Assembly (NCBI GenBank): GCA_944332025.1
Contig: CALVJB010000012.1
Location: 1-33,223, forward strand
Reading direction: 5' to 3'
Length of the DNA stretch: 33,223 bases
Origin: an uncultured Bacilli bacterium
Lineage (GTDB): Bacteria > Bacillota_I > Bacilli_A > RF39 > UBA660
The notes beneath the pieces are model-generated. The model worked only from the letters and a program-made list of their open reading frames with translations. It had not been told where the DNA came from and did no database searches. Positions 577-28,459 of the stretch are shown here, in pieces (positions within the stretch are counted from its first letter, which is position 1; the number at the start of each line of letters is the position of its first letter). The translations under genes and the position numbers were made by a program.

Positions 577-2199
577 TTAATTATTCTTTTTTACTTTAAC
601 TTTATATAATACTTTAGGTTTTAAATACTCTTCTTCATCCCTAGTCATTGAAGTTTCCTCTGCTTCAACTGTACCAATTATTCCAAAATATCTATTAACA
701 TCTTCCAAATCAAAAAATCTTTTTGTATAATCTCCTTCAAAATAAAAGTTTTTCTCTAGTTCTTCACCAACACCTGCTCCAAAATTAAAGTCATTAACAG
801 AAGCAACTCGTGCTAATAGTATTCCATCAGTTTTTAATATTCTTTTTATTTCATTCATTATATGTATAGTATCTTTATTATTAAAATACTGTAAAGATAA
901 ATCTGCTATAATTAAAGAATATGTCTCATCATCAATTGGAAAACTATCTAACATATTTAAATACATTGTTTTACTATTAGGAATATTATATTTAACACTC
1001 CTTAAAGCTTCTTTAGAAAAATCACAAGACAAAGCATTATATCCTCTTTCCATTAAATATAAAGTATCAGCACCAACTCCACAACCTAAATCTAATATTT
1101 CACTATTTTTATTATCTTCTAAAATATCTTTATATTCCTCTAACCATAAATCATAAAAAGGAACACCAGAACGTTTTTTAGACCAATTATCCCACATTTC
1201 AACATAACCATTATTACCAATAATACTATTCCAAAAATCAGGTGTACTAAAACTTAATCCTTTTTCACTTTCAGCTAGCCAAAAAGCATCCTCTTCTGAC
1301 ATTTCACCAAGACTAGCCAAATAACTTACCTGTAATATTCCCATTGCATTAGCAAGGTCATAAAATAATGGGAAACACTCCAATTCATAATCTGTTAATT
1401 TATTATATTTTTGATATTCATCTAATATCATCTTTGTACTTTCTATTGTTTTATCTTTATTATCAGGATTTAAACATAAATTACAAGATGTTACCGCTAA
1501 ATCTACAATTCTAGGTAAATAATTAGAAACAGCAAAATCAATTATCCATAACCTACCATTACTATCTTTCATTACATTTGAGCTAATAATATCTCCATGA
1601 ACAAAGCTTGATGGTAATTTATCTAACTTAACATTGTTAAATCTCTGATATAAATTATCAAAAATATCTTTATATTTATTATCTAAATACTTCCCTTTCT
1701 CTTCATACTCTTTAGGAAAATTAATGATTGCCCATTTATCATAAATAAAATCTGATTCTAATTTAGCTTCATGTATTTTTACCATCTGAGAAATAATATT
1801 TTTTATCTCTTCTTCAGTAGGTATTTCATTTAAATCATAAAAACTTTTACCATCAACATATTCAAATACACATAATCTAAAAGTAACATTATCTAAACTA
1901 ATCTCACATAATATATCATTATTACATTTATATACCTTTGGAGTATTAATATCTAATGTATTTGCTAGTTCTATCCTATCAATATACATTTTTACATCCG
2001 AAGAAGTTCTTTCTTTATTAAATATTTTTACACAATACTTTCCATTTTCAGTTGTTAATATAAAATTAAAATCTTCATATCCAACTAAAATAATTTCATC
2101 AGATAAATATTTACCAAGATTATATTTCTGACATATCATTTTTGATAATAAAGACAAGTCAGGTTTAAGATTTATTCTATCGTAAAATTCTTGTAACAT
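577..2199 (-). CDS. Fusion of APH-family phosphotransferase and class I SAM methyltransferase
   Basis: This is a two-domain cytosolic enzyme of 540 residues. Residues 30-290 look like an aminoglycoside/homoserine/choline kinase fold. They carry a beta-strand Lys (CVKIF), a hinge (FEYVDG), the catalytic-loop HGD at 201-203 followed by SSNVM, and a metal-binding Asp in IIDFA at about 221. Residues 335-540 look like a Rossmann methyltransferase, with motif I DLGCGVGAD at 370-378 and an acidic residue after strand 2 (CDFS). The start is the ATG at 2199, because AAAGGA ends 9 bases upstream of it. An in-frame ATG 18 bases further upstream has no ribosome site. It is likely co-transcribed with the DUF3795-like gene 43 bases upstream. 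The substrate is unknown. Resistance, sugar/choline modification or small-molecule modification are all possible. Confidence 0.75.
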   Translation of the reverse strand: MLQEFYDRINLKPDLSLLSKMICQKYNLGKYLSDEIILVGYEDFNFILTTENGKYCVKIFNKERTSSDVKMYIDRIELANTLDINTPKVYKCNNDILCEISLDNVTFRLCVFEYVDGKSFYDLNEIPTEEEIKNIISQMVKIHEAKLESDFIYDKWAIINFPKEYEEKGKYLDNKYKDIFDNLYQRFNNVKLDKLPSSFVHGDIISSNVMKDSNGRLWIIDFAVSNYLPRIVDLAVTSCNLCLNPDNKDKTIESTKMILDEYQKYNKLTDYELECFPLFYDLANAMGILQVSYLASLGEMSEEDAFWLAESEKGLSFSTPDFWNSIIGNNGYVEMWDNWSKKRSGVPFYDLWLEEYKDILEDNKNSEILDLGCGVGADTLYLMERGYNALSCDFSKEALRSVKYNIPNSKTMYLNMLDSFPIDDETYSLIIADLSLQYFNNKDTIHIMNEIKRILKTDGILLARVASVNDFNFGAGVGEELEKNFYFEGDYTKRFFDLEDVNRYFGIIGTVEAEETSMTRDEEEYLKPKVLYKVKVKKNN

Positions 2200-2242
2200 C
2201 TTACCAAATCCTTTCATAATTACTAATTATTAATTTTATTTA

Positions 2243-2743
2243 TTATTTCTTCTCAGTATAATCAATATAATGAGGCATATTTTTATTTTCTTCATAATAT
2301 TGTCTAATACCATACTCTTTTATTTGATGATTACCATTTAACCATTTATCTATTATAGTCTTTTTATAAATAGAAGTATTAACCTTATCACAAGGAAACT
2401 CTATGCACTCTCCACAAAAATCAACATTATGTTTTTCAGTACATTCAGGAATAATACAACCCTTTATACAACAACTACTAACTCTTCCCTTTCTACACCC
2501 TGCACATTTAGGATAAGCATATTTTTTTAACTTTTTACTAAATGCTTTAAATTCGTCTAATTTATGTCTATATTCTTTCTTTAAATTATTATCTAAAAAC
2601 TCTTCATGTCCCTCTAATAAATGTAATAGCTCTTTCGCATGATAACTTATCTGTCCATACTGACAAGCAGTACAAGTTGAACAAAACATAGAGCATGGAG
2701 CAACATTATTTAAAATTTCTTTACTAACTTTTTCTTTTATCAT
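2243..2743 (-). CDS. DUF3795-like cysteine-rich protein
   Basis: A 166-residue protein with about 15 Cys. They lie in an N-terminal cluster (CSMFCSTCTAC), a central CAGCRKG followed by CC and C..C spacings, and a C-terminal CGECIEFPCDK. This arrangement, especially C..C..FPC, matches the DUF3795 family of small proteins that probably bind zinc or an iron-sulfur cluster and whose biochemical role is not established. A helical segment separates the first cluster from the second. The start is supported by GGTGA five bases upstream. It is first in a two-gene minus-strand unit with the kinase-methyltransferase fusion. No catalytic function is claimed. Confidence 0.7.
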   Translation of the reverse strand: MIKEKVSKEILNNVAPCSMFCSTCTACQYGQISYHAKELLHLLEGHEEFLDNNLKKEYRHKLDEFKAFSKKLKKYAYPKCAGCRKGRVSSCCIKGCIIPECTEKHNVDFCGECIEFPCDKVNTSIYKKTIIDKWLNGNHQIKEYGIRQYYEENKNMPHYIDYTEKK

Positions 2744-6456: not shown

Positions 6457-6514
6457 TTAAACTCTCCTTTCAAAAATAAATATACAATATTAGAGTACAC
6501 TATAATCAAATGAT

Positions 6515-7771
6515 TTATACGCTATTCTCCAAATATTTCATAATTGCATATGCTGCATCTCTTCCAGCCCGTGAGGCAAAAGCAACTGTAGAAGTAGTAC
6601 CTGCTAAATCTCCTCCAGCAAATACTTTTTCTTTTGAAGTATGTCCATCTTTATCTATTAGTATTCTTCCTCTTTTATCAAGTTCTAATCCTAAACTATT
6701 AACAACACTACTTTCAGGATGACTTCCTATCGCCATAACTACATAGTCACAAGATAGATAATAGTTAGTTCCTTCTATATTAACAGGAGATAATCTATCA
6801 TCATCATCTTTTTTAACAAGTTCTGTCTTAATTACTTCAATTTTCTCTACACTTTTTTCTCCATAAATACCAATAATATTATTTTGAAATAAAAACTCTA
6901 TACCATCTTCCTTCGCTTCCTTAATCTCTTTCGCTTCTGCAGGAGCTTCCCTCTCACTCCTCCTATAAATAACATATACTTTTTTAGCATTTTTTCTTTT
7001 TATAGTACGAGATACATCCATGGCAACATTACCAGAACCGCTGATTACTACTGTTTTACCTGTATAATCAGGATGATTATTAGATTCTAACAACTCATTA
7101 CCACCGATTACCCCTTCTAAATCTTCTCCAGGTATATTCATCTTACTAGAAAGATTCGCTCCAAATCCTAAAAACACTGCATCATATTCTTTCTCTAAGT
7201 CTTCTAAACTAAAGTCTTTCCCAATACTTTGATTAAGTTTAACATTTATACCTAACTCTAAAATCTTATCAATTACTTTTCTTAATAAAGCTTTATCTAG
7301 CCTAAAATTAGGTATCCCATGATATAAAAGACCCCCTAAATAATTATGTCTTTCATAAATAGTAACGTTATAACCATTTCGTCTTAGGAAAGCTGCACAG
7401 GTTAATCCAGATGGTCCTCCTCCTACAACAGCTATTTTCTTATTTTTTAGAGGTAAACTACTAATAGACCAATTATTCTTCAAAGCCATATCGCCAATAA
7501 AAGCTTCTATATCTCCAATTTTAACAGATTCAAAAGATACTTTCTTTACACACATTCCTTGACACTGCTTCTCATGCGGACAAATTCTTCCACAAACAGA
7601 AGGTAATACTGTGGTCTCTAATAATAAGTGATATGCTTCTTCATACTTACCTTCACGAGCCAATTTTATAAAACCAGTTGTATCATTATTTAATGGACAT
7701 CCTACTTGACAAGGCTTAGTAACACAAGAAAGACATTCTAAAGTTTTTTTCTTTATATCTTCTTCATTCAT
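6515..7771 (-). CDS. GltD-like FAD/NAD(P)H oxidoreductase (glutamate synthase small-chain family)
   Basis: A 418-residue flavoprotein related to the glutamate synthase small subunit. An N-terminal iron-sulfur domain has Cys13, 16, 21 and 25 and then Cys60, 64, 70 and 74 (CGRICPHEKQCQGMC). The FAD Rossmann motif GGGPSGL is at 117-123. The NAD(P)H motif GSGNVAMD is at 245-252, with the first Gly of the usual GGG replaced by Ser. The C-terminal GGDLAGT closes the FAD site. The ATG overlaps the end of the hydrogenase gene by eight bases and has GGGAGGT upstream, so the two proteins are probably made together. No glutamate synthase large subunit is present. The likely role is to pass electrons between NAD(P)H and the adjacent hydrogenase. 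Partner and direction are inferred. Confidence 0.85.
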   Translation of the reverse strand: MNEEDIKKKTLECLSCVTKPCQVGCPLNNDTTGFIKLAREGKYEEAYHLLLETTVLPSVCGRICPHEKQCQGMCVKKVSFESVKIGDIEAFIGDMALKNNWSISSLPLKNKKIAVVGGGPSGLTCAAFLRRNGYNVTIYERHNYLGGLLYHGIPNFRLDKALLRKVIDKILELGINVKLNQSIGKDFSLEDLEKEYDAVFLGFGANLSSKMNIPGEDLEGVIGGNELLESNNHPDYTGKTVVISGSGNVAMDVSRTIKRKNAKKVYVIYRRSEREAPAEAKEIKEAKEDGIEFLFQNNIIGIYGEKSVEKIEVIKTELVKKDDDDRLSPVNIEGTNYYLSCDYVVMAIGSHPESSVVNSLGLELDKRGRILIDKDGHTSKEKVFAGGDLAGTTSTVAFASRAGRDAAYAIMKYLENSV

Positions 7772-9113
7772 GCTTCTTACCTCCCAACAAATAAGATTTA
7801 TCCTGATAAGTAGTATGAAGTAACTCTTTTGCCTTAGGACTATTTGAATATTCTAAAAAGTCTTTATAGATTTCTTTAATCTCAGGATTCTCATGACAAA
7901 ATCTTACTTTTGCCTTTTCATCTTCCTTATAAATACCATTCATTCTAGCAAGTTTTGTCTTATTAAGATTAAGTAAAGTACTTTTAGGTTGTCCTCCACC
8001 TGCAATACAACCACCTAAACAGTTCATAACTTCGACAAAGTGATAAGTAACTTCTCCACTTCTTATTTTATCTAATAATATTTTAGCATTTTTCATACCA
8101 TTAAGAACTGCAACTTTAATCTCTAAATCATCTATCATAATAGAAGCTTCTTTAATACCTTCCATTCCTCTAACTTCATTAAACACTAACTTTTCTTTAC
8201 TAAGATTTTCTCCTGTTAAGTAATAATAAGCCGTTCTAAGAGCAGCCTCCAACACTCCCCCACTATTTCCAAAGATTAAACCTGCACTACTACCTTTTCC
8301 TAAAGGAGAATCAAAAGTACCTTCTTCTAAACTATCTAAATCAATACCTTCTTCTTTTAAAAGTAAAGCTAACTCTCTAGTAGTTAAAACAAAATCAGTA
8401 TCAGAAACACCTGACCTATTAACCTCATCTCTTTTAATCTCACTTTTCTTAGCCGTACAAGGAGCGATAACAACATTTAATATATCCTTAGGCTTAATTT
8501 TTTTCTCACCTGCAAAGTAAGTCTTAATCATTGTAGACTGCATTGTAATAGGACTTTTACAACTAGACAAATTAGGTATAAACTCAGGATAAAATATTTC
8601 TGCATACTTTACCCAAGCAGGACAACATGATGTAAACATAGGTAGAGTTCCTTTATTTTTAATACGATTAACTAACTCCATCGCTTCTTCCATAATAGTT
8701 AAATCAGCCCCAAAAGTTATATCAAAGACATAATCAAAACCTAATTTTCTTAAAGCTGTAACTACCTTTCCTTCTAAGTTTTCTCCTAACTCTAACCCAA
8801 ACTCTTCACCTATTGCCACCCTAACAGCAGGTGCAATACTAACAGTCTTTACAATACTTTCATCTTTTAATAACCTCTTAAGTCTTAAATAATCATACTT
8901 CTCATGAATACTTTCTGTAGGACACATATTTACACATTGCCCACAATTTATACAAATAGGCTTCCTACTCTTATCTATCTCATACATTCTTGCCACAGTA
9001 ATTTCATCACGACAAGTCTTAACACAATATCCACAAGAAATACATTTACTATAATCCTTTTCTATCGCTTCATTATCTTTAGAATAAATTATTTCTAAAT
9101 CTTCTTCCTTCAT
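7764..9113 (-). CDS. hydA: [FeFe] hydrogenase, two-cluster (M2-type) catalytic subunit
   Basis: A 449-residue iron hydrogenase catalysing reversible proton reduction. Two [4Fe-4S] ferredoxin motifs lie at Cys24, 27, 30, 34 and Cys54, 57, 60, 64. The three H-cluster motifs are intact: L1 TSCCPAW at 161-167, L2 APCTAKKSE at 217-225 and L3 EVMNCLGGCIAGGGQP at 361-376. After them comes a short small-subunit-like domain (residues 390-430). There is no [2Fe-2S] or His-ligated domain, so the enzyme is simpler than the clostridial monomeric type. It lies between a broken flavin reductase gene (16 bases upstream) and the overlapping GltD-like gene. The maturases HydE, HydF and HydG are not in the window. 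The start has AGGAAG seven bases upstream. Confidence 0.93.
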   Translation of the reverse strand: MKEEDLEIIYSKDNEAIEKDYSKCISCGYCVKTCRDEITVARMYEIDKSRKPICINCGQCVNMCPTESIHEKYDYLRLKRLLKDESIVKTVSIAPAVRVAIGEEFGLELGENLEGKVVTALRKLGFDYVFDITFGADLTIMEEAMELVNRIKNKGTLPMFTSCCPAWVKYAEIFYPEFIPNLSSCKSPITMQSTMIKTYFAGEKKIKPKDILNVVIAPCTAKKSEIKRDEVNRSGVSDTDFVLTTRELALLLKEEGIDLDSLEEGTFDSPLGKGSSAGLIFGNSGGVLEAALRTAYYYLTGENLSKEKLVFNEVRGMEGIKEASIMIDDLEIKVAVLNGMKNAKILLDKIRSGEVTYHFVEVMNCLGGCIAGGGQPKSTLLNLNKTKLARMNGIYKEDEKAKVRFCHENPEIKEIYKDFLEYSNSPKAKELLHTTYQDKSYLLGGKKHE

Positions 9114-9129
9114 ACAACACTTCCTAAAA

Positions 9130-9587
9130 CTATATTCGCATTTTATTTAATATCTCTCTGCCATCTAAACTATCAGTAACAACACCCTTTAACTCCATTC
9201 CCATTAAATAACTTAATCTATTAGATAAAAACTCAATAGACTTAACTGTATCTTCATTAGGAAGAGAACCTTGAGCGAATAAATATAATTTCTTACCTCT
9301 TAAAACTTCTGCCTCAGGTAGCATATAAAGCCTATCAATAAAAGTCTTTAACATACCTCCTACTGTATACCAATAAACAGGACTACCTATTACTAGAATA
9401 TCTATTTATCCATTTCTTTTAATACCTCTTTCATCTCATCATCTTCAAACACTTGTCCATACTGAGATATTCTATAATCTGCCATCTGTAAAACATTATG
9501 ATCTTTATCTTTTAATAACTCTTCTCCTATTCTATAAGTATTACCATCCCTATTAGGACTACTATTAACAAATAATATCTTTTCCAT
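9130..9587 (-). pseudogene. Frameshifted NAD(P)H-dependent FMN reductase (flavodoxin-like fold)
   Basis: Two adjacent fragments make one flavodoxin-like reductase of about 150 residues. The first frame starts at 9587 behind GGAGGAA with MEKILFVNSSPNRDGNTY, the FMN phosphate loop, and stops after KEMDK at 9402. In the frame used by the second fragment the intervening bases read IDILVIGSPVYWYTVGGMLKTF, the next expected strand and flavin loop, continuing to 9130. The frames differ by one base near 9402-9406, and no slippery heptamer is visible there. So this is either a one-base deletion or a sequencing error. It is the first gene of the hydrogenase cluster. An intact version would be a flavin or quinone reductase. 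Confidence 0.8.
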
Positions 9588-9600
9588 AAATCATTCCTCC

Positions 9601-9638
9601 TACACCCATAATACACCCGTGTTCTACTCCCATGTCAA
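9601..9638 (-). promoter_or_regulatory. Promoter of the redox cluster with three direct repeats
   Basis: On the minus strand a consensus -35 TTGACA (9633-9638) is followed either by TGTATT with a 17-base spacer (9610-9615) or by TATTAT with a 19-base spacer (9608-9613). Three direct repeats of the form A(T/C)GGG(A/T)GTA lie at 9625-9633, 9612-9620 and 9601-9609, spanning spacer, -10 and start region. The unusually G-rich repeats suggest a regulator-binding array. A 19-base spacer is typical of promoters activated by MerR-family proteins, but no dyad was seen. Confidence 0.6.
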
Positions 9639-9646
9639 GAAAAATA

Positions 9647-9674
9647 AAAAGACAAGAACTAATTCTCATCTTTT
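9647..9674 (-). terminator. Terminator containing the stop codon of the PH-domain gene
   Basis: On the minus strand AAAAGATGAGAA and TTCTTGTCTTTT pair with two central mismatches around a TTAG loop, followed by TATTTTT. The loop holds the TAG stop of the gene at 9659. It insulates that gene from the redox-cluster promoter only nine bases away. Confidence 0.65.
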
Positions 9675-10090
9675 AACTCTAACATTGCACTAGTTACTTC
9701 TTCTTCAATCTCAGGTAAAGCACTCTTACTTATATTAGATAAAATTACAAGTTCACTAACAGTATCTATTATAATCTTTCCCCAAATAATACCACTTCTA
9801 ACCTTTAAATCATTAAACATATCAGCAGTAATACTATCAAAGAAATAACCAATTACAACTCTATCCCTAGCAATAACTAATCTTTTATTAGTAACTGCAA
9901 TTATACCACTACTAGTCACATCTAAAGAACTCTTATTCTTTTGAGCATAGAAAGCATATCTAATTACTTCATCATCATGTAAATGTTCAAGTAATATTTT
10001 AGAATGTTTCCTTAATCTCCAACCTACAGTTAAAGGATACTTTCTCTTAAAATTAGAAAGTTGAGTTCTTAAAATTTCTTCATTATTCAT
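9659..10090 (-). CDS. Bacterial PH-domain (YokE-like) protein
   Basis: A 143-residue cytosolic protein. Residues 1-45 are helical and basic. The middle (about 45-125) has the strand pattern of a bacterial pleckstrin-homology domain, with SGIIAVTNKRLVIARD followed by a GYFFDSI strand and GIIWGKIIIDT. The motif T(N)KRL(V/I) after a short hydrophobic strand is the recognisable signature of the YokE-like/bPH group. Its ligand is unknown. It follows the thioredoxin-like gene by eight bases and has AGAGGAA before the ATG, so the two are probably one transcript. Confidence 0.7.
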   Translation of the reverse strand: MNNEEILRTQLSNFKRKYPLTVGWRLRKHSKILLEHLHDDEVIRYAFYAQKNKSSLDVTSSGIIAVTNKRLVIARDRVVIGYFFDSITADMFNDLKVRSGIIWGKIIIDTVSELVILSNISKSALPEIEEEVTSAMLELKDEN

Positions 10091-10098
10091 AAATTCCT

Positions 10099-10638
10099 CT
10101 ATTCACTGATAAAACCATTATCTGTTAAGAAATTAACAGTTGTATCTTTATCAGTATAACCTTCTTGAATATCAACTATCTCATCATCTTTAACTACAAG
10201 TAATAAAGGTGTACCATATCCTTCACTAAAGTAATCGTCAGACTCTATCAACTTAGCTTGACCATCATCATCTAATTCATCAGTATTTAAGTAATTAACA
10301 GTAACCCCATATTCATAAATAATATTTCTAACAATAGGAGTCATTTGTTGACAATATCCACATGTAGGTCTTGCAACATAAATAATAGATGCATCGCTTC
10401 CTTCTTTAAGATCTAAATATTCATCAATATCAATCTCAGTCATATCAGCTTGTTCATCTTCAGGTATATCACTACTACTAGATGTATCATTAGAACTATT
10501 ATTAGATTCACTAGTAGTTGTAGTACTATTATCACTTCCCTTTAACTCAGAAGTAAAATAACTAGCACCAAAAACTATAACTAAAAGCAATACGATTATA
10601 GTAGCAGTTTTAATTTTTTCTATATTCTCTTTTTTCAT
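10099..10638 (-). CDS. Membrane-anchored thioredoxin-like protein
   Basis: A 179-residue protein with an N-terminal anchor (residues 11-30, TATIIVLLLVIVFGASYFTS) and a Ser/Thr/Asn-rich linker to about 60. A thioredoxin fold fills 68-179. The active site is C93-G-Y-C96 in the context ARPTCGYCQQM, and a cis-Pro loop follows (YGTPLLLVV). The CGYC pair and the outward topology suggest a surface thiol-disulfide enzyme acting on exported proteins. In structure it resembles the PedC/BrcD-like and TlpA-like groups, but the exact family is uncertain. It has a strong site (GGAGGGAGAAG) and heads a two-gene unit with the PH-domain protein. Confidence 0.8.
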   Translation of the reverse strand: MKKENIEKIKTATIIVLLLVIVFGASYFTSELKGSDNSTTTTSESNNSSNDTSSSSDIPEDEQADMTEIDIDEYLDLKEGSDASIIYVARPTCGYCQQMTPIVRNIIYEYGVTVNYLNTDELDDDGQAKLIESDDYFSEGYGTPLLLVVKDDEIVDIQEGYTDKDTTVNFLTDNGFISE

Positions 10639-14870: not shown

Positions 14871-16724
14871 TTAATCAGCAAGTTCCAAAGTAAATGGATC
14901 AGATTTAGTACCTGTTCCTTCGGTTATTACTACGTTAGATTTTAGATTTAATGATGGAAGAATACCATGTGAGTTAGAAGGAATACCATCGTTCACATAG
15001 CCACTGTACCCAACACCATACACATAAGATGCGCTATGTGGAGTTAAAGCCCAATAAGTTATACTATTATCATATTTTTCGAATTGACCAGACATTAATT
15101 CCCCATATCGGAGTAAGCCTATTTTTGCTTCTGTAGTATATGAAGTTGTACTATTCATATTAGCATCTGCATACTTTGCTAGTTTATAACTTACACCACT
15201 TTCTACTGTTCCAAGATACCAAGTACTATTTTCTTCAACCATATCACTATATGTACTATCCACATATTCTGTTAAATATACTCCATTTAAGAAGGTACCT
15301 ATTGTTGTACTACTTGAATAACTAACACTATTATTACTATCAAAAGCTATTTTTTTAAATTCTTCAGAATCTTTCAATGGTTCGGCACTTACTATCTTTG
15401 TTCCTGTACCATTTTCATGACTTACTATTCTATATAGATTATTTTCATCATTACCAAATCTTATATATTCACCACTATATCTTGTGTTAAGTTTTGTTCC
15501 ATTCAAATTAGTATCATTATCTCCCATTAGTCTGTATGGATCATCTTTTGTTCCTTCCCCATCAACTATTTTTACATTACTTTTTAAATTTATTGATGGA
15601 TGCACACCATTTGCGAGAGAAGGACTATAGTTGCTCACATTGCCAAGAGAGTCAACGTAACGTACATAAGATGAATCGTATGGAGTTAAAGTCCACCAAG
15701 AAAGCCTATTATTTAAATAACCATCTGTCCCACCATTATTACTAGACTGATACTCATACATATTTAAAAGTCCTACTGCATCAGTTACAGTTTCCTGCCC
15801 ATTAGGTCTTGTTATACTACCTAATTCTGTATCATCCGTCGTCGCATCCCACTTAGCATCTGTTACAATAAAATTCTTATAATTTCTTAAATTACCTAAA
15901 AAACCATCTACACTTGTATCATTTAACCACTCTTCCATATAACTTCCTTCAAAAGCACTACTATTAGCACCATAAGATATGGCACTTATATTCCACTGTG
16001 TTACTAACTTAGTTGTTCCTGCTTCTTTATTTACAGACACCGCTCTCCATAACTTTCCACTATACCAGATATAGTTGTTAGGATCAGTTCCTGTTATAAA
16101 TGTATCTACTCCATCATCATATTGGTTTTCTTTAGGAATATTTTCAAGCAACACTGTACTAACTTCTTCTCCTACAGGTTGTGTTGCTACTACTCTTAAT
16201 TTTGCTTTAAATGTTTTACCTCCTGCTTCTTCACTTGTTGCATCATAATCTATCCAGATTCTTAAAGTATAATTAATAGTTTCATCTTTAGCAATAGTAC
16301 CAAAGTCTACTCTTCTATTAGGATCACTTCCCATTGTTGTTAAGTTCTTAGCACTAAAAACTTCTTCATTCTTGGTTAAACTATACCTTATAGCAGAATC
16401 AGTCATCCTTGTTTCTCCTTCATCTAGAGGTATATCATCTAAATATATTTTATAATCTGTTTCTATATTTCCATTATTAGTTAAAGAAAAACTAAAGCCA
16501 TTTAAACTCATTCCTTCAGAGTCTTCTATAGGTATTTGTTTTTCAAGTGTTAATTCATTATCTTCTCCAAGTACCAAATCAAGTGTCCCTGCTCTTATTA
16601 CATACTCTTCTTGTCCTTGTAAGGTTGTTCTAAGGTAAGCATATGCTATTCCTATTAAAAGTATAAGAATTATTGCAACCGATATTATTATTACCTTTTT
16701 ATTATTTTTAATCGCTTCTTTCAT
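14871..16724 (-). CDS. Surface protein: TasA/CalY-like N-terminus and two DUF6273/lectin-like repeats
   Basis: A 617-residue exported protein. Residues 1-35 are a SipW-type signal (MKEAIKNNKK, hydrophobic core, IGIAYAYLRTTLQG). Residues 35-185 are a strand-rich TasA/camelysin-like domain (FSFSLTNNGNIETDYKIYLDD). Two tandem repeats follow. The first has DTFITGTDPNNYIWYSGKLWRAVSV, EEWLND, VGLLNMYEYQSS and WWTLTPYDSSYVRYV...PSINLKSNV. The second has SGEYIRFGNDENNLYRIVSHENG, GTFLNG, YWALTPHSASYV and PSLNLKSNV. Each repeat holds one variable cassette before its conserved PS(I/L)NLKSNV. The ATG at 16724 is chosen for AGGTG six bases upstream. A GTG and ATG just before it lie in the ribosome site. 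It follows the gene at 16734 by nine bases. It is probably a fibre or surface display protein. The ligand is unknown. Confidence 0.8.
   Translation of the reverse strand: MKEAIKNNKKVIIISVAIILILLIGIAYAYLRTTLQGQEEYVIRAGTLDLVLGEDNELTLEKQIPIEDSEGMSLNGFSFSLTNNGNIETDYKIYLDDIPLDEGETRMTDSAIRYSLTKNEEVFSAKNLTTMGSDPNRRVDFGTIAKDETINYTLRIWIDYDATSEEAGGKTFKAKLRVVATQPVGEEVSTVLLENIPKENQYDDGVDTFITGTDPNNYIWYSGKLWRAVSVNKEAGTTKLVTQWNISAISYGANSSAFEGSYMEEWLNDTSVDGFLGNLRNYKNFIVTDAKWDATTDDTELGSITRPNGQETVTDAVGLLNMYEYQSSNNGGTDGYLNNRLSWWTLTPYDSSYVRYVDSLGNVSNYSPSLANGVHPSINLKSNVKIVDGEGTKDDPYRLMGDNDTNLNGTKLNTRYSGEYIRFGNDENNLYRIVSHENGTGTKIVSAEPLKDSEEFKKIAFDSNNSVSYSSSTTIGTFLNGVYLTEYVDSTYSDMVEENSTWYLGTVESGVSYKLAKYADANMNSTTSYTTEAKIGLLRYGELMSGQFEKYDNSITYWALTPHSASYVYGVGYSGYVNDGIPSNSHGILPSLNLKSNVVITEGTGTKSDPFTLELAD
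14955..15041 (-). other. Variable cassette, second repeat of the 14871 protein
   Basis: A 29-codon cassette between LTP and PSLNL. It aligns without gaps to the cassette at 15597-15683, yet I counted about 32 base differences in 87, with 24 of them at codon positions 1 or 2. The invariant positions are few (Ser5, Tyr6, Val7, Val10, Gly14, Val16, Pro21, Gly26). It is a candidate variable region of a hypermutation system, or the result of ordinary diversifying selection. Confidence 0.55.
15597..15683 (-). other. Variable cassette, first repeat of the 14871 protein
   Basis: This is the 29-codon partner of 14955-15041. Its codon dialect (TCA, TCT, CCT, GTT) is the AT-rich host style and differs from the GC-rich dialect of the 24625 gene. 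If a template exists, it must be a different one. Confidence 0.55.
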
Positions 16725-16733
16725 AAACATCAC

Positions 16734-18515
16734 CTACCTTATTGTCGCTACTAGACGGAATGAGATAAAATCAACAACATTTCCACCATTGCTAGAAGAA
16801 GAGAAAATCCCATAAGTATTATTCATTTGTCCATAACTACCACCACGCAACAGCCATGGATATGACTCACTAACCATAATAAAATAATCATTATACCAAC
16901 CACTTGTCTCCGTTAAAGAATGACTTAAACACTCACTATCATTACATGCTGTATTTACATTATTGCTTATATACTTATCATAATACTTTACATCTGGCAT
17001 AAAAGGTAAACCACTAGTTGATATTACATCATTATAATTTGCCATGACATACTCCCAAGTACCTCCACTCATATCATATATTCCATAAATATTTCCTGTA
17101 GTTGATGCTCCTGTTCCATTCATTTCTGTATCGTATGTATATTGACATCCATAACTACCGTTAGCACTAGGTAATCCACTACTACAGCCTGTTATATAAC
17201 TATCTGATTTATTTTGATATACTTCTTTATTCTCTCTGCTATAATTAGTATTTCCTAACTTTCCATATTTACTTTGGGAAAGATATGCTACTACTGCCCA
17301 CTCACTATTCTTCATCATATGGGTATCTGTTGTTTCACTAAATCCATATCTGTTTCCTGCATCATTCATTTTTTGTGATACTGTAAAAGCAATATTTATA
17401 TTTGCACTTCTCCAACTTGTTACATTTGGTTTTATCATGACATCTAAATTCATATTGCTTCCTCCACCAGCACTAGCATTTGGATCACTACTAGAAGTCT
17501 CAAACTTTCCTACCCAGATTCCTCTTAACTCTTCATCACCAAACGTAAAAGCATCTGGAGTATACCAATCAGCATCGCTTATTCCTTCACTTACTATGTA
17601 TTTGGCACTCCCTTTATCTTTAGTATTTTCACTAACAAACTTTATATCTATCTCTCCTGGTAAAGCTTGTGTAGGTGTACTTTCTAAATACTCCCCTTGT
17701 TTTCCATAATAATTAGTACCATCAACACTACCTATTGTATAACTATATCTTGGTATCCATACCCACATTGTCTCTATATCATCCATATTTATTACTGTTC
17801 CAACTTCTGCACTTAAATAATTATCTCTTGTATCGCTACTTACTGTTACGGCATTTGCCCATTGTCCACTATCATAATTATACCAATAATTAGTACTAGA
17901 ATCTGCTTTTACCCAATTACTTCCATTATATGTTACCGCTATCATTCCATCATCTAATTCTGGTACATTTGGACTATTTTGTTTCCTATCATAACTTGTT
18001 ACTACTATCTTACTTTGATATATCTTACCCTGAGCAGAGTTATCTGCATCCTCATCTAACCACATCCATAAAGTATAAGTAGTATTATCACTTGGTTCTA
18101 ATACTTGTTCATTCATTACATCAAATGTACCTGTTCCATAATTATTTACTTTAACTACTCCACTATCATATCCTTTATCATTTGTTAGTCTCATCTTTAA
18201 ATAACTATTGGATAAAGTATTATTACTATCTTCTTCTAATGATACATGATAATAAGCATTTATATTACCAGTATTAGTTATAGTAAAAGTATAAGGTGTT
18301 GTTTTAAGTCCTTGTTTATCTGTCATAGGAGCGATATTATCTAAATTAATATTATCTCCCTCTTTAAAATCAACTTGTAATATCCCTGCTGTTAAAGTTA
18401 TCTTTTTATCTCCTTCTATAGTCATAGTAAGTAAAGCATAAGTTGTCCCTACCAAAGCTATTATACTTATTGATATTACTATTACTGATATTATTATATA
18501 TTTCTTTTTATTCAT
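16734..18515 (-). CDS. Surface protein: TasA-like N-terminus and FGE-sulfatase/C-type-lectin-like C-terminus
   Basis: A 593-residue exported protein. A signal segment (MNKKKYIIIS, hydrophobic core, LVGTTYALLTMTI) is followed by a TasA/CalY-like domain to about 180 (YTFTITNTGNINAYYHVSLEE). Residues 240-593 resemble the formylglycine-generating-enzyme/C-type-lectin fold: MWVWIPRYSYTIG, then RGIWVGKFETS, KMNDAGNRYGFS, KNSEWAVVAYLSQSKYG, GNIYGIYDMSGGTWEYVMAN and, at the end, WLLRGGSYG...FISFRLVATIR. FGE-like domains of this form are common display scaffolds, and the active-site Cys of true FGE is not evident. The last 31 codons are a typical place for a variable region. It has AGGAG before the ATG and a good promoter at 18574-18603, and heads the operon with the gene at 14871. 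Confidence 0.8.
   Translation of the reverse strand: MNKKKYIIISVIVISISIIALVGTTYALLTMTIEGDKKITLTAGILQVDFKEGDNINLDNIAPMTDKQGLKTTPYTFTITNTGNINAYYHVSLEEDSNNTLSNSYLKMRLTNDKGYDSGVVKVNNYGTGTFDVMNEQVLEPSDNTTYTLWMWLDEDADNSAQGKIYQSKIVVTSYDRKQNSPNVPELDDGMIAVTYNGSNWVKADSSTNYWYNYDSGQWANAVTVSSDTRDNYLSAEVGTVINMDDIETMWVWIPRYSYTIGSVDGTNYYGKQGEYLESTPTQALPGEIDIKFVSENTKDKGSAKYIVSEGISDADWYTPDAFTFGDEELRGIWVGKFETSSSDPNASAGGGSNMNLDVMIKPNVTSWRSANINIAFTVSQKMNDAGNRYGFSETTDTHMMKNSEWAVVAYLSQSKYGKLGNTNYSRENKEVYQNKSDSYITGCSSGLPSANGSYGCQYTYDTEMNGTGASTTGNIYGIYDMSGGTWEYVMANYNDVISTSGLPFMPDVKYYDKYISNNVNTACNDSECLSHSLTETSGWYNDYFIMVSESYPWLLRGGSYGQMNNTYGIFSSSSNGGNVVDFISFRLVATIR
16755..16847 (-). other. Candidate variable region of the lectin-fold protein
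   Basis: It spans 31 codons from RGG to SFR at the extreme C-terminus. In the lectin-fold targets of known diversity-generating retroelements the variable residues lie in this position. Only one copy exists here, so variation cannot be tested within the window. Confidence 0.4.
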
Positions 18516-24624: not shown

Positions 24625-26532
24625 CTAACTACCAAGAGTCAAAGTGAAAGGTGAATTTTTAGTACCATTTCCTCCTGTTATTACTACGTTTGACTTTAGA
24701 TTTATGGATGGTCGGACACCGCCCGAATAGGTCGGAGCGTTGTTGTTCGCAATGCCATCGTCGAACACGTAACGCACGTAATACGCACTATCTGGTGTCA
24801 AAGTCCAATAAGTTATATTATTACCATATCTGTCAAATTGCCCTGCCATTAATTCTCCCATTCGAAGTAATCCTACTTTAGATTCTGTACTTGTAGCATA
24901 CCCTGACATACTGATATCTGTATATTTGGCTAGTTTATAACTTGCACCACTTCCTACTCTTCCTAAATACCAAGTTGTACTATCTTCTATCATATCACTA
25001 TATGTACTATCTACATAACTTGTTAGATATTCTCCATTTAAAAATGTTCCAATTGTATTTGTACTTGAAAATGTAGTTGTATCTCCAAATGCACTTGTTA
25101 TAAATTCTCCGTTACTCTTTAATGGTTCGGCACTAACTATTTTTGTTCCTATTCCATTTTCATGGCTTACTATTCTATATAGATTATTCTCATCATTTCC
25201 AAATCTTACATACTCACCACTATATCTACTTGAAAGTAATGTACCTGATAGACTAGTATCATTATCTCCTTCTAAGCGATAGGGATTTTCTATTGTTCCA
25301 TTACCATCTACAATACGAACGCTAGATTTTAGATTTATTGATGGCCGGACACCGTACGAAAAGGTCGGAGTGTAGAGGCTCGCATTGCCATTGTAGTACA
25401 CGTTACGCACGTAAGACGAACTATATGGTGTTAAAGTCCACCAATAAAGTCCATTATTTAAATAACCATTACCATCGGTTGTTCCTGTATAACTGGATTG
25501 ATACTCATACATATTAAGTAATCCTACAGATGCCGTTACAGTTGTTGTTCCATCAGGGCGTGTTATACTTCCCAACTTTCTATCATCCATTGTCACATCC
25601 CATACTGCATCTGTTACTATAAAGTCCTCATAATCTCTTAAATTGCCTAAGAAACCATCGGCACTAGTATCATTTAGCCACTCTTCCATATGACTTCCTT
25701 CAAAGTCTGTACTACCACTAGAGTAATCAACTGCACTTATATTCCATTGAGTTACTAATTTAGTAGTATTCGCTTCTTTATTAACAGATACTGCTCTCCA
25801 TAATTTACCAGAGTACCAGATATAGTTATTTGGATCTTCTCCAGTTATAAAGGTATCTACTCCATCATCATATTGATTATCTTCTGGTATATTTGCTAGT
25901 AACACATCACTTACTGGCTCTGCTACTCTATCTAGTCCATACACATTTATTTGAACACTAAATTGTAAGTTTCCTCCATCTCCTTGAGGATTATAATCTT
26001 CATCAACCCACATTCTAAGTCTATAGTTATTACTTTCACTAGAGTTCATACTACTAGTATATAAACTCATCTCTCCTGATGGTCTTCCTGTAAAACTATT
26101 AGATGTACTTTCTTCATTATATACTTCAGGTGTCATTAATTCTTCTTCTGTTCCATCTTCTGTTAATCTTGTTAGATATAACTTTATATTAGATCCATCT
26201 ATCTTCTTTACATCACTACTAGTTACATCCTTAGCAGATATCTCATAATTAATATTTACATCTCCTGATATTTGACTACTTACTGTAAAATCAAAATATT
26301 CTCCTGGATTTAATCTTACTTTCCCTGTCGCATCTGTTGTCGGTAATGCTCCATTTAAACTTATTGTATTATCAGTCTCAGTATATGTCATTGTAATAGA
26401 ACCAGTCGTAATTGTATTTAATTTAGTGCCTGTGGCACTATAGTTAAATACAGCCCAACTTACTCCTATTAATGCTATTACCATTAATAATATTAATCCT
26501 ATTATTACTATCTCTTTCTTTGTTTTTTCCAT
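24625..26532 (-). CDS. Surface protein: TasA/CalY-like N-terminus and two hypervariable lectin-like repeats
   Basis: A 635-residue exported protein, paralogous to the gene just upstream and of exactly the same length. The signal is MEKTKKE, a hydrophobic core and IGVSWAVFNYS. A TasA-like strand domain (residues 35-205) contains ITTGSITMTYTE and YFDFTVSS. Repeat 1 runs from DTFITGEDPNNYIWYSGKLWRAVS to WWTLTPYSSSYVRNVYYNG and GVRPSINLKSS. Repeat 2 runs from SGEYVRFGNDENNLYRIVS to YWTLTPDSAYYVRYVFDDG and GVRPSINLKSNV. The two variable cassettes (25342-25428 and 24709-24795) have 52% and 55% GC with codons AAC, TAC, GCG and GTG that are rare in the rest of the gene. AAGGAGAG precedes the ATG, 19 bases after the upstream gene. 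The likely role is display of a variable ligand-binding face. Confidence 0.82.
   Translation of the reverse strand: MEKTKKEIVIIGLILLMVIALIGVSWAVFNYSATGTKLNTITTGSITMTYTETDNTISLNGALPTTDATGKVRLNPGEYFDFTVSSQISGDVNINYEISAKDVTSSDVKKIDGSNIKLYLTRLTEDGTEEELMTPEVYNEESTSNSFTGRPSGEMSLYTSSMNSSESNNYRLRMWVDEDYNPQGDGGNLQFSVQINVYGLDRVAEPVSDVLLANIPEDNQYDDGVDTFITGEDPNNYIWYSGKLWRAVSVNKEANTTKLVTQWNISAVDYSSGSTDFEGSHMEEWLNDTSADGFLGNLRDYEDFIVTDAVWDVTMDDRKLGSITRPDGTTTVTASVGLLNMYEYQSSYTGTTDGNGYLNNGLYWWTLTPYSSSYVRNVYYNGNASLYTPTFSYGVRPSINLKSSVRIVDGNGTIENPYRLEGDNDTSLSGTLLSSRYSGEYVRFGNDENNLYRIVSHENGIGTKIVSAEPLKSNGEFITSAFGDTTTFSSTNTIGTFLNGEYLTSYVDSTYSDMIEDSTTWYLGRVGSGASYKLAKYTDISMSGYATSTESKVGLLRMGELMAGQFDRYGNNITYWTLTPDSAYYVRYVFDDGIANNNAPTYSGGVRPSINLKSNVVITGGNGTKNSPFTLTLGS
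24709..24795 (-). other. Hypervariable cassette, second repeat of the 24625 protein (DGR-like)
   Basis: A 29-codon, gap-free counterpart of 25342-25428. I counted 17 differences in 87 bases. Sixteen are at codon positions 1 or 2, and in 13 one copy has A. The third positions agree almost throughout. It includes three consecutive AAC codons, and 48 of 87 bases are G or C. This is the footprint expected when adenines of a template are randomised. Confidence 0.7.
25342..25428 (-). other. Hypervariable cassette, first repeat of the 24625 protein (DGR-like)
   Basis: This is the partner of 24709-24795, with 45 of 87 bases G or C. Shared non-A positions include TAC-GTG-CGT, GGC, GCG, CCG-ACC, TCG and GGT-GTC-CG. 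From the two copies a template rich in AAC/AAT codons can be inferred for the varying positions. Confidence 0.7.
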
Positions 26533-26551: not shown

Positions 26552-28459
26552 TTAACTACCTAATTCAATTTGAAATGGATTATTTTTAGTACCATTACCG
26601 CCTGTTATCACAACATTAGATTTTAAATTTAAGGATGGACGAATACCGTATGTATCATTTGGAACAAAGTAGTAATACCCATCACCATTGTAATAAACAA
26701 CCCGCATATGAGACGCACTATATGGTGTTAACATCCAATAAGTTAAATTATTAGCATACCTGTCAAATTGTCCTGCCATTAATTCTCCCATTCGAAGTAA
26801 TCCCACCTTAGCTTGAGTTACATTTGAAGTTGCTGTATTTCCTGTAACATCTGTATATTTCGCTAGTTTATATGAAGTACCACTACCTACTGTTCCTAAA
26901 TACCAAGTTGTACTATCTTCTATCATATCACTATATGTGCTATCTACATAACTTGTTAGATAATCCCCATTTAAGAATGTTCCTATTGTATTGGTACTTG
27001 AAAATGTTACTGTATCTCCAAATGCACTTGTTATAAATGTATCAGAATTCTTTAGTGGTTCGGCACTTACTATCTTTGTTCCTGTTCCATTTTCATGACT
27101 TACTATTCTATATAGATTATTTTCATCATTGCCAAATCTTATATACTCTCCACTATATCTTGTATTTAGTAGTGTCCCTGATAGATTACTATCATTATCT
27201 CCTTCTAAGCGATATGGATTATCTATTGTGCCATCTCCATCCACAATTTTAACGTCAGATTTTAAATTTATAGATGGACGAACTCCATATGAATCAATCG
27301 GAGCATTCATATACATGATACCATGATCAATAATAATTCGTAAGTCTTCCCCCACTTGTGTTAAGGTCCACCAAATAAGTCCATTATTTAAATAACCATT
27401 ACTATAAGTTGTTCCATGATAACTAGATTGATATTCATACACATTAAGTAATCCTACAGGTGCTGTTACTGTTGTCGTTCCATCAGGTCTTGTTATACTT
27501 CCTAAACCATTAAAATCTTCTGTTGTATCCCATACGCTATCTGTTACTATAAACTTCCCTGGTTCTCTTAAATTACCTAAAAAACCATCTACTGTAGTAT
27601 CATTTAACCATTCTTCCATATAACTTCCTTCAAAAGCACTACTATCATTATCATATGATATTACACTTATATCCCACTGTGTTACTAATTTAGTAGTCTT
27701 GACTTCATTATTTACACTAACCGCTCTCCATAACTTACCACTATACCAGATATAGTTATTAGGATCTTCTCCAGTTATAAAGGTGTCTACTCCATCATCA
27801 AACTGATTTTCTTTTGGTATATTATTAAGTAATACTGTTGATGCTTCTTCTGCTACTCTATCTAATCCATAAACATTTATCTGGACACTAAACTGTAGGT
27901 TTCCTCCATCTCCTTGAGGATTATAATCATCACTAACCCACATTCTAAGTCTATAAGTATTACTCTCACTAGAGTTCATACTACTTGTATATAAACTCAT
28001 CTCTCCTACTGGTCTTCCTGTAAAGCTATTTGAACTTACTTCTTCATTATAAACTTCTGGTGTCATTAACTCTTCCTCACCATCATCTGTTAATCTTGTT
28101 AAATATAGCTTTATATTACTTCCATCTATTTTATTAGCACTACTACTAGTTACATCTTTTGCACTTATCTCATAATTAATATTAACATCTCCTGATATAT
28201 TACTACTAACAGTAAAATCAAAGTATTCTCCTTGATTTAATCTAGTCTTACCTGTCGCATCCGTTGTAGGTAGGGCTCCTGTTAAATTAATTGTATTATC
28301 ACTCTCTTCATATGTCATAGTAATAGATCCCGTTGTTATAGTATTTACTTTAGTTCCTTCTCCTATAAATCTAAACGCTGCATATGAAACCCCTATTAAT
28401 GCAATTATCATTAATACTATCAATCCTATTATTACTATCTCTTTCTTTGTCTTTACCAT
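26552..28459 (-). CDS. Surface protein: TasA/CalY-like N-terminus and two variable lectin-like repeats
   Basis: A 635-residue paralogue of the gene at 24625 and first in the operon. The signal is MVKTKKE, core, IGVSYAAFRFIG. The TasA-like domain keeps ITTGSITMTYEE and YFDFTVSS. Repeat 1 has DTFITGEDPNNYIWYSGKLWRAVSV, EEWLND and WWTLTQVGEDLRIII, where the usual LTP is LTQ and the cassette is one codon short. Repeat 2 has SGEYIRFGNDENNLYRIVS, FLNG and YWMLTPYSASHMRVV, ending GIRPSLNLKSNV, with a cassette one codon long. The frameworks outside the cassettes are nearly identical to those of the 24625 gene, so duplication was recent compared with the divergence of the cassettes. GAGGAG lies nine bases before the ATG. 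Confidence 0.82.
   Translation of the reverse strand: MVKTKKEIVIIGLIVLMIIALIGVSYAAFRFIGEGTKVNTITTGSITMTYEESDNTINLTGALPTTDATGKTRLNQGEYFDFTVSSNISGDVNINYEISAKDVTSSSANKIDGSNIKLYLTRLTDDGEEELMTPEVYNEEVSSNSFTGRPVGEMSLYTSSMNSSESNTYRLRMWVSDDYNPQGDGGNLQFSVQINVYGLDRVAEEASTVLLNNIPKENQFDDGVDTFITGEDPNNYIWYSGKLWRAVSVNNEVKTTKLVTQWDISVISYDNDSSAFEGSYMEEWLNDTTVDGFLGNLREPGKFIVTDSVWDTTEDFNGLGSITRPDGTTTVTAPVGLLNVYEYQSSYHGTTYSNGYLNNGLIWWTLTQVGEDLRIIIDHGIMYMNAPIDSYGVRPSINLKSDVKIVDGDGTIDNPYRLEGDNDSNLSGTLLNTRYSGEYIRFGNDENNLYRIVSHENGTGTKIVSAEPLKNSDTFITSAFGDTVTFSSTNTIGTFLNGDYLTSYVDSTYSDMIEDSTTWYLGTVGSGTSYKLAKYTDVTGNTATSNVTQAKVGLLRMGELMAGQFDRYANNLTYWMLTPYSASHMRVVYYNGDGYYYFVPNDTYGIRPSLNLKSNVVITGGNGTKNNPFQIELGS
26636..26725 (-). 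other. Variable cassette, second repeat of the 26552 protein
   Basis: It has 30 codons, one more than most of the other cassettes. Its left part (TAT AGT GCG TCT) matches the 24625 cassettes, and the centre is rich in TAT/TAC (Tyr-Tyr-Tyr). Tyr-rich sites are usual in lectin-fold ligand faces. Confidence 0.5.
27275..27358 (-). other. Divergent short cassette, first repeat of the 26552 protein
   Basis: It has 28 codons. It starts with CAA in place of the otherwise constant CCA (Pro to Gln) and has host-like codons (ATT ATT ATT GAT). It may be a cassette no longer renewed from a template, or one made from another template. Confidence 0.45.

Follow-up and report, generated by a model that had tools for sequence, protein, structure and literature searches.

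Paired variable repeats in tandem DUF6273 domains point to a remote target of a diversity-generating retroelement in an uncultured Bacilli bacterium

Introduction

Why should two short cassettes of one gene in an AT-rich genome be GC-rich and conserved at third codon positions, while positions 1 and 2 change? We addressed this question in a window of 33,223 nt, contig C12 of a 1.59 Mb assembly (101 contigs, 95% complete) of an uncultured Bacilli bacterium. An earlier sequence-only reading had proposed that the encoded protein carries two variable regions of the diversity-generating retroelement (DGR) type in tandem. Our analysis indicates that the gene is very probably a remote bacterial DGR target, whose two tandem DUF6273 domains, of a type reported to be lectin-like, each contain one variable repeat (VR). 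Adenine-restricted differences, templates (TRs), genes for DGR reverse transcriptase (RT) and Avd, and paired VRs were all directly established.

Results

Two GC-rich cassettes change at codon positions 1 and 2

The features analysed are listed in Table 1. The two cassettes lie in frame in a gene encoding 635 aa, and our recount agreed with the sequence-only reading on their coordinates and composition: 29 codons align gap-free and differ at 17 bases, of which 16 occupy codon position 1 or 2 and one occupies position 3, and A is present in one copy at 13 of the 17. The described contrast with AT-rich flanks was also borne out, as the GC contents of the cassettes (0.55 and 0.52) exceeded those of the whole gene (0.34) and the window (0.28). 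These values are reached by 0.07% and 0.2% of 87-nt windows, placing the cassettes among the most GC-rich parts of the window. When the two domains of the gene were compared, third positions differed in 2 of 28 codons in the cassette vs 92 of 162 outside it (GC3 0.64 vs 0.16), confirming the claimed conservation inside and divergence in the flanks. The cassettes are therefore far closer at silent positions than the older duplication that surrounds them.

Table 1. Coordinates of the features discussed; positions without a contig or locus label are those of the window
Feature	Position	Strand	Remarks
Target gene, 635 aa	24625..26532	-	Hydrophobic N-terminal segment, beta-sandwich, two tandem DUF6273 domains, one VR each
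VR1, internal variable repeat	25342..25419	-	TR-homologous limits; residues about 372-397
VR2, C-terminal variable repeat	24709..24786	-	TR-homologous limits; residues about 583-608
A-free GC-rich 3' end of VR1	25342..25353	-	Position expected of an initiation-of-mutagenic-homing (IMH) site
Same 3' element in VR2	24709-24720	-	Contains one G-to-A change
Paralogue with two cassettes	26552..28459	-	Cassettes 27278-27352 and 26642-26716; fits no known template
Paralogue with two partly decayed cassettes	14871..16733	-	Cassettes 15600-15674 and 14958-15032
Gene with weak FGE-sulfatase match	16734-18515	-	
TR, non-coding, AAC/AAT-rich	C49:6856-6931		Roughly 170 nt past the second VR of a paired-VR target
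TR, non-coding, AAC/AAT-rich	C57:5312-5389		Roughly 170 nt past the second VR of a paired-VR target
TR cut short	L036, G000:C24, about 1076-2400		Followed by ORFs resembling transposase pieces
Conserved element just after TR	G000:C49:6966-6999; C52:1-34; C57:5423-5456		TATATAGAATAGATAAAAGGAACAGGTAATTTCC
Row of other-family template-like repeats	L004, G000:C5:13442-16074	-	Four to five repeats
Third DGR	L006, G000:C41, about 6487-10400	-	Own target, VR and TR
ORF112	L002:255-593; L166:7194-7532		Between TR and Avd

Cassettes on other contigs yield a template that predicts the window differences

Searching the DNA of the same genome with the cassette gave about 20 strong matches, most of them arranged as pairs with a spacing of about 630-670 nt. 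The homologous DUF6273 genes that bear them lie on contigs C2, C3, C8, C11, C17, C24, C30, C43, C46, C49 and C57 and in the window. We inferred a template from nine cassettes on other contigs, with the window excluded and A called at every varying column; this call presupposes DGR behaviour, although the window took no part in it and the real TRs carry A at nearly the same places. Among the other-contig cassettes, A was one of the alleles in 24/24 variable columns, and 23 of these columns fell at codon positions 1 or 2. Against the held-out template, VR1 was changed at 12/27 adenine sites and 0/51 other sites (p = 4e-7), and VR2 at 13/27 adenine sites and 2/51 other sites (p = 6e-6). VR1 and VR2 differ at 16 positions covered by the template, and 14 of these are template A, which occupies 27 of 78 positions (hypergeometric p = 1.5e-6), as the sequence-only reading had anticipated. 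Of the rest, one difference lies outside the template on its 5' side, and two are non-A changes that belong to the C-terminal copy.

The closest real template, in the congener G004, is 91% identical to the inferred one. A guessed template matched only the TRs on C49 and C57, plus one chance-level match. Templates of this family, A-rich as expected, exist elsewhere in the genome. The exact cognate of the window cassettes, which match neither assembled template type, was absent from the 101 contigs of the 95%-complete assembly, and we had to infer its sequence. The pair was probably homed into by a template outside the assembly.

Real templates differ from their paired repeats at adenines

The family templates in this genome comprise two adenine-rich TRs (C49 and C57) and a broken one (C24). 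Compared with the VRs of its adjacent target, the C49 TR differed at 16/26 A and 1/49 other positions in VR1 and at 9/26 A and 0/49 others in VR2; for the C57 TR the values were 14/23 A and 0/56 others in VR1, and 11/23 A and 1/56 others in VR2. The same adenine bias relative to the TR marked the two VRs of the adjoining gene in five congeneric genomes (G001, G006, G022, G026 and G032), ranging from the cleanest case, G032 (13/27 and 14/27 A vs 0/49 and 1/49 others), to weaker ones such as VR1 of G026 (14/24 A vs 7/51 others). These comparisons indicate that a single TR serving two VRs of one gene is common in the genus.

The GC richness of the cassettes is that of the templates. In C49 and C57, TR-VR similarity stops at the A-free GC-rich 3' element, and by analogy with Bordetella phage BPP-1 the corresponding end of VR1 is a candidate IMH site. 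No significant inverted repeat or hairpin was detected within 130 nt of the internal VR1, and the only inverted repeat near VR2 is terminator-like and lies about 90 nt downstream. An AAT CTA AAA stretch just 3' of the VRs was considered as a recognition element and set aside as uninformative, since silent sites are conserved in the flanks of the paralogues in any case.

A conserved element (TATATAGAATAGATAAAAGGAACAGGTAATTTCC) was observed just after the TR; it is present in 20 of 35 genus genomes and may form part of the template RNA. The C24 TR breaks off early, and the ORFs after it resemble transposase pieces, as if a mobile element had disrupted it.

The variable repeats occupy the most variable part of two DUF6273 domains

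PF19789 (DUF6273) matched the protein in two stretches (45 bits vs a cut-off of 23.5), of which the stretch 269-403 includes VR1, the VR sitting at the C-terminal end of the Pfam domain. Among 38 relatives, the VR columns were the most variable portion of both domains, with mean entropies of 2.1 and 2.3 bits vs 0.6-0.9 in the rest. The full-length fold had a mean pLDDT of 47.8 and was uninformative for the DUF6273 domains. The model of D1 built from a single-domain alignment reached a pLDDT of 95, and in it the VR covers a hairpin with strands 171-174 and 180-183. The best PDB match of D1 was a bacterial IgA peptidase (9qa6, E 8e-10, TMq 0.62); D1 also matched phage DUF6273 proteins, and matches to lectins and to the Lcl domain of Legionella appeared only at E values of 0.19 or higher. 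The lectin assignment of DUF6273 rests on published work (PMC10743442).

The hydrophobic N-terminal segment is the feature that suggests a surface location, and the target probably serves in binding there. A TasA/camelysin-like identity of the N-terminal domain was dropped, as Foldseek returned only generic beta-sandwich matches, none at E <= 0.001. The named relatives of the gene come from metagenome-assembled genomes of uncultured Bacilli/Tenericutes and Candidatus Onthousia, which probably places the host in or close to the latter genus. The neighbouring genes of the window look ordinarily bacterial by eye. No viral contig among those searched encodes a relative of the target, and the RT relatives found in them do not exceed 38% identity; a phage origin was therefore rejected.

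Reverse transcriptases and the state of the system

The DGR reverse transcriptase that the sequence-only reading expected elsewhere in the genome was found on three other contigs (C5, C41 and C52), with PHROG 1423 as the best family (E 1e-117, 3e-59 and 1e-57). The C5 RT also matched PDB 8ub7 (E 6e-47), which we take to be the DGR reverse transcriptase of BPP-1. Genes of the type of Avd, an accessory protein that is usual but not universal in DGRs, adjoin the RTs, the C5 copy scoring above the curated cut-off (NF033474, 83.4 vs 80) and those of C41 and C52 weakly. The RT lineage matching the present template family is that of C52; in relatives the RTs are intact, at 305-318 aa and 82-92% identity. 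In G001 the complete order was two-VR target, TR, ORF112, Avd-like gene and an RT of 316 aa.

Past DGR diversification by a system now dead in this strain, with the cassettes left over from a template since lost and an RT since broken, is an unlikely explanation with several observations behind it. The cognate template is missing from the assembly; the C52 RT has 245 aa, an internal deletion having removed the C-terminal portion after YMDD; and the C41 RT has YMDG instead of YMDD and a frameshift interruption. These points also weigh against the main reading, as do the association of the intact C5 RT with templates of another family and the lack of a significant hairpin after VR1. VR2 bears the two non-A changes, and both neighbouring paralogues contain decayed cassettes, with 24-27/49 (26552..28459) and 15-20/49 (14871..16733) non-A mismatches to the type-1 and C49 templates. 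However, VR1 and at least five other-contig cassettes have zero non-A mismatches to the inferred template, which argues that the last writing was recent. Moreover, C57 resembles the counterpart of the intact G001 core (same upstream genes, by eye) and is simply cut off by its contig end where ORF112 begins, and the last 77 nt of C49 are exactly the first 77 nt of C52, as at an assembly-graph branch, suggesting a further, unassembled core copy. That copy perhaps carries the missing cognate template, and DGR activity on the window gene may continue.

Other retroelement traces were observed in the same genome. ORF112, a small conserved gene, had no match in family searches; on C41 an ORF of similar size precedes Avd, with only a marginal MutS_I match (E 0.4). 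The same contig has a third DGR whose own target, VR and TR differ in sequence. On C5, a single Avd and a single intact RT are preceded upstream by a row of four to five template-like repeats that belong to another family (ending ...AACTCGTTCCGCCTCGTG); the search used recovered no VR for these repeats in this genome. The window gene at 16734-18515, compared by eye with the C5 templates, has an end (RGGSYGQMNNTYGIF...SFRLVATIR) like that of classical DGR targets and may once have been a target of that template family.

Mosaic cassettes and the case for template exchange

Cassette types were assigned from diagnostic non-A positions. Cassettes of the window, C17, C2, C8, C43, C46 and C11 were of type 1 and those of C49 of type 2, and the C3 and C24-end cassettes point to further template types. 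VR1 of C24 and VR1 of C30 are mosaics that combine type 2 on the 5' side with type 1 on the 3' side, while VR2 of C24 is broadly the reverse (type-1 5', type-2 3'). In BPP-1 the cDNA begins at the 3' end of the VR, so a partial overwrite from a second template would yield the type-2-5'/type-1-3' arrangement. An exchangeable pool of TRs may accordingly overwrite shared, genome-wide paired VRs in turn, the mosaics recording partial overwrites; we hold this only tentatively, because recombination between paralogues would also produce such mosaics and possibly had a role in forming them.

The many paralogues and the mosaics of template types would also suit gene conversion combined with diversifying selection on a binding surface, with no retroelement involved. 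This is highly improbable: conversion and selection would not confine changes to positions at which a distinct non-coding copy has A, and the real TRs show exactly that confinement in this genome and five others, so that this reading is effectively refuted. A chance pattern, or a horizontally acquired GC-rich domain duplicated in the gene and left to ordinary drift, fits GC-rich cassettes in an AT-rich genome but has a negligible probability, since drift favours third positions, here conserved while positions 1 and 2 change, and the GC richness traces to the templates.

Discussion

The held-out template, the RTs and the real TR-VR pairs together support the proposal of two tandem DGR-type variable regions in one protein. 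The scale of the system, with about 20 mostly paired cassettes in the genome and a design repeated across the genus, goes beyond what the sequence-only reading had proposed. Under the DGR reading, a TR elsewhere in the genome would be transcribed and copied into cDNA by a DGR RT with an Avd-type partner, random bases entering at template adenines. The cDNA would then replace VR1 or VR2, homing from the GC-rich 3' end; any VR with such an end and sufficient 5' similarity would accept it, and the same template could reach both VRs of a gene. Since the template codons are mainly AAY, rewriting would alter surface residues and spare third positions, so that the GC-rich template backbone persists; randomised NNY codons never become stop codons, and the diversified codons therefore could not turn into stops. 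Because these proteins have a common N-terminal part but different heads, a cell could display many pairs of binding faces. The benefit can only be guessed at, and might be gut attachment or evasion of host or phage recognition.

The DGR reading accounts for a GC-rich, third-position-conserved pattern that ordinary annotation would overlook. If template exchange is real, a gut commensal with a 1.6 Mb genome keeps a dozen or more two-headed binding proteins diversifying in trans. To our knowledge, few bacterial (non-phage) DGRs have been studied experimentally. Because the genus holds a two-headed diversified repertoire with several templates, it offers a natural setting for studying how one template serves two VRs, whether a hairpin is needed and whether templates are exchanged.

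The case is a clear, unusually extended example of a known mutation system. Multi-VR ORFs, remote targets, many targets per genome and DUF6273 targets have all been published (PMC3521204, PMC6642488, PMC10907252, PMC10743442, PMC11792537); in a literature coverage that was partial, we found no publication linking Onthousia or RF39 to diversity-generating retroelements. Like BPP-1 (Mtd, Avd, bRT), the present system has a bRT-related RT, an adjoining Avd, adenine mutagenesis and a GC-rich VR 3' end. Homing in BPP-1 requires a hairpin just after the VR (PMC3240598), whereas the internal VR1 described here has no significant hairpin; a hairpin or cruciform 3' of the VR occurs in BPP-1 and many phage DGRs and is not defining for all.

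DUF6273 is a lectin-like DGR target in gut phages, in tentaclins and Faecalibacterium prophages (PMC10743442, PMC11792537), which share with our protein the domain, the C-terminal VR and a lectin-like model with the VR on a surface hairpin. Those targets are phage proteins, whereas ours has no relative in the viral contigs searched. In a survey, 31 of 271 multi-VR DGRs held several VRs in one ORF (PMC6642488); that survey (Yan et al. type) counts single loci, whereas the family described here is dispersed and has several template types.

Thiohalocapsa PB-PSB1 and Marichromatium purpuratum have several DGR loci per genome, remote targets diversified in trans (15 targets in PB-PSB1) and single targets with tandem VR-bearing lectin domains (PMC10907252, PMC3521204), and the present genome resembles them in all three respects. 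Their tandem targets carry conflict-system domains (vWA and others), whereas the targets described here combine DUF6273 with a beta-sandwich at the N-terminus. They belong to a gut Bacilli genome of 1.6 Mb, and pairs are the rule in its genus. What distinguishes the present case is this genus-wide paired-VR design, a repertoire dispersed over so small a genome, and mosaic VRs that suggest template exchange.
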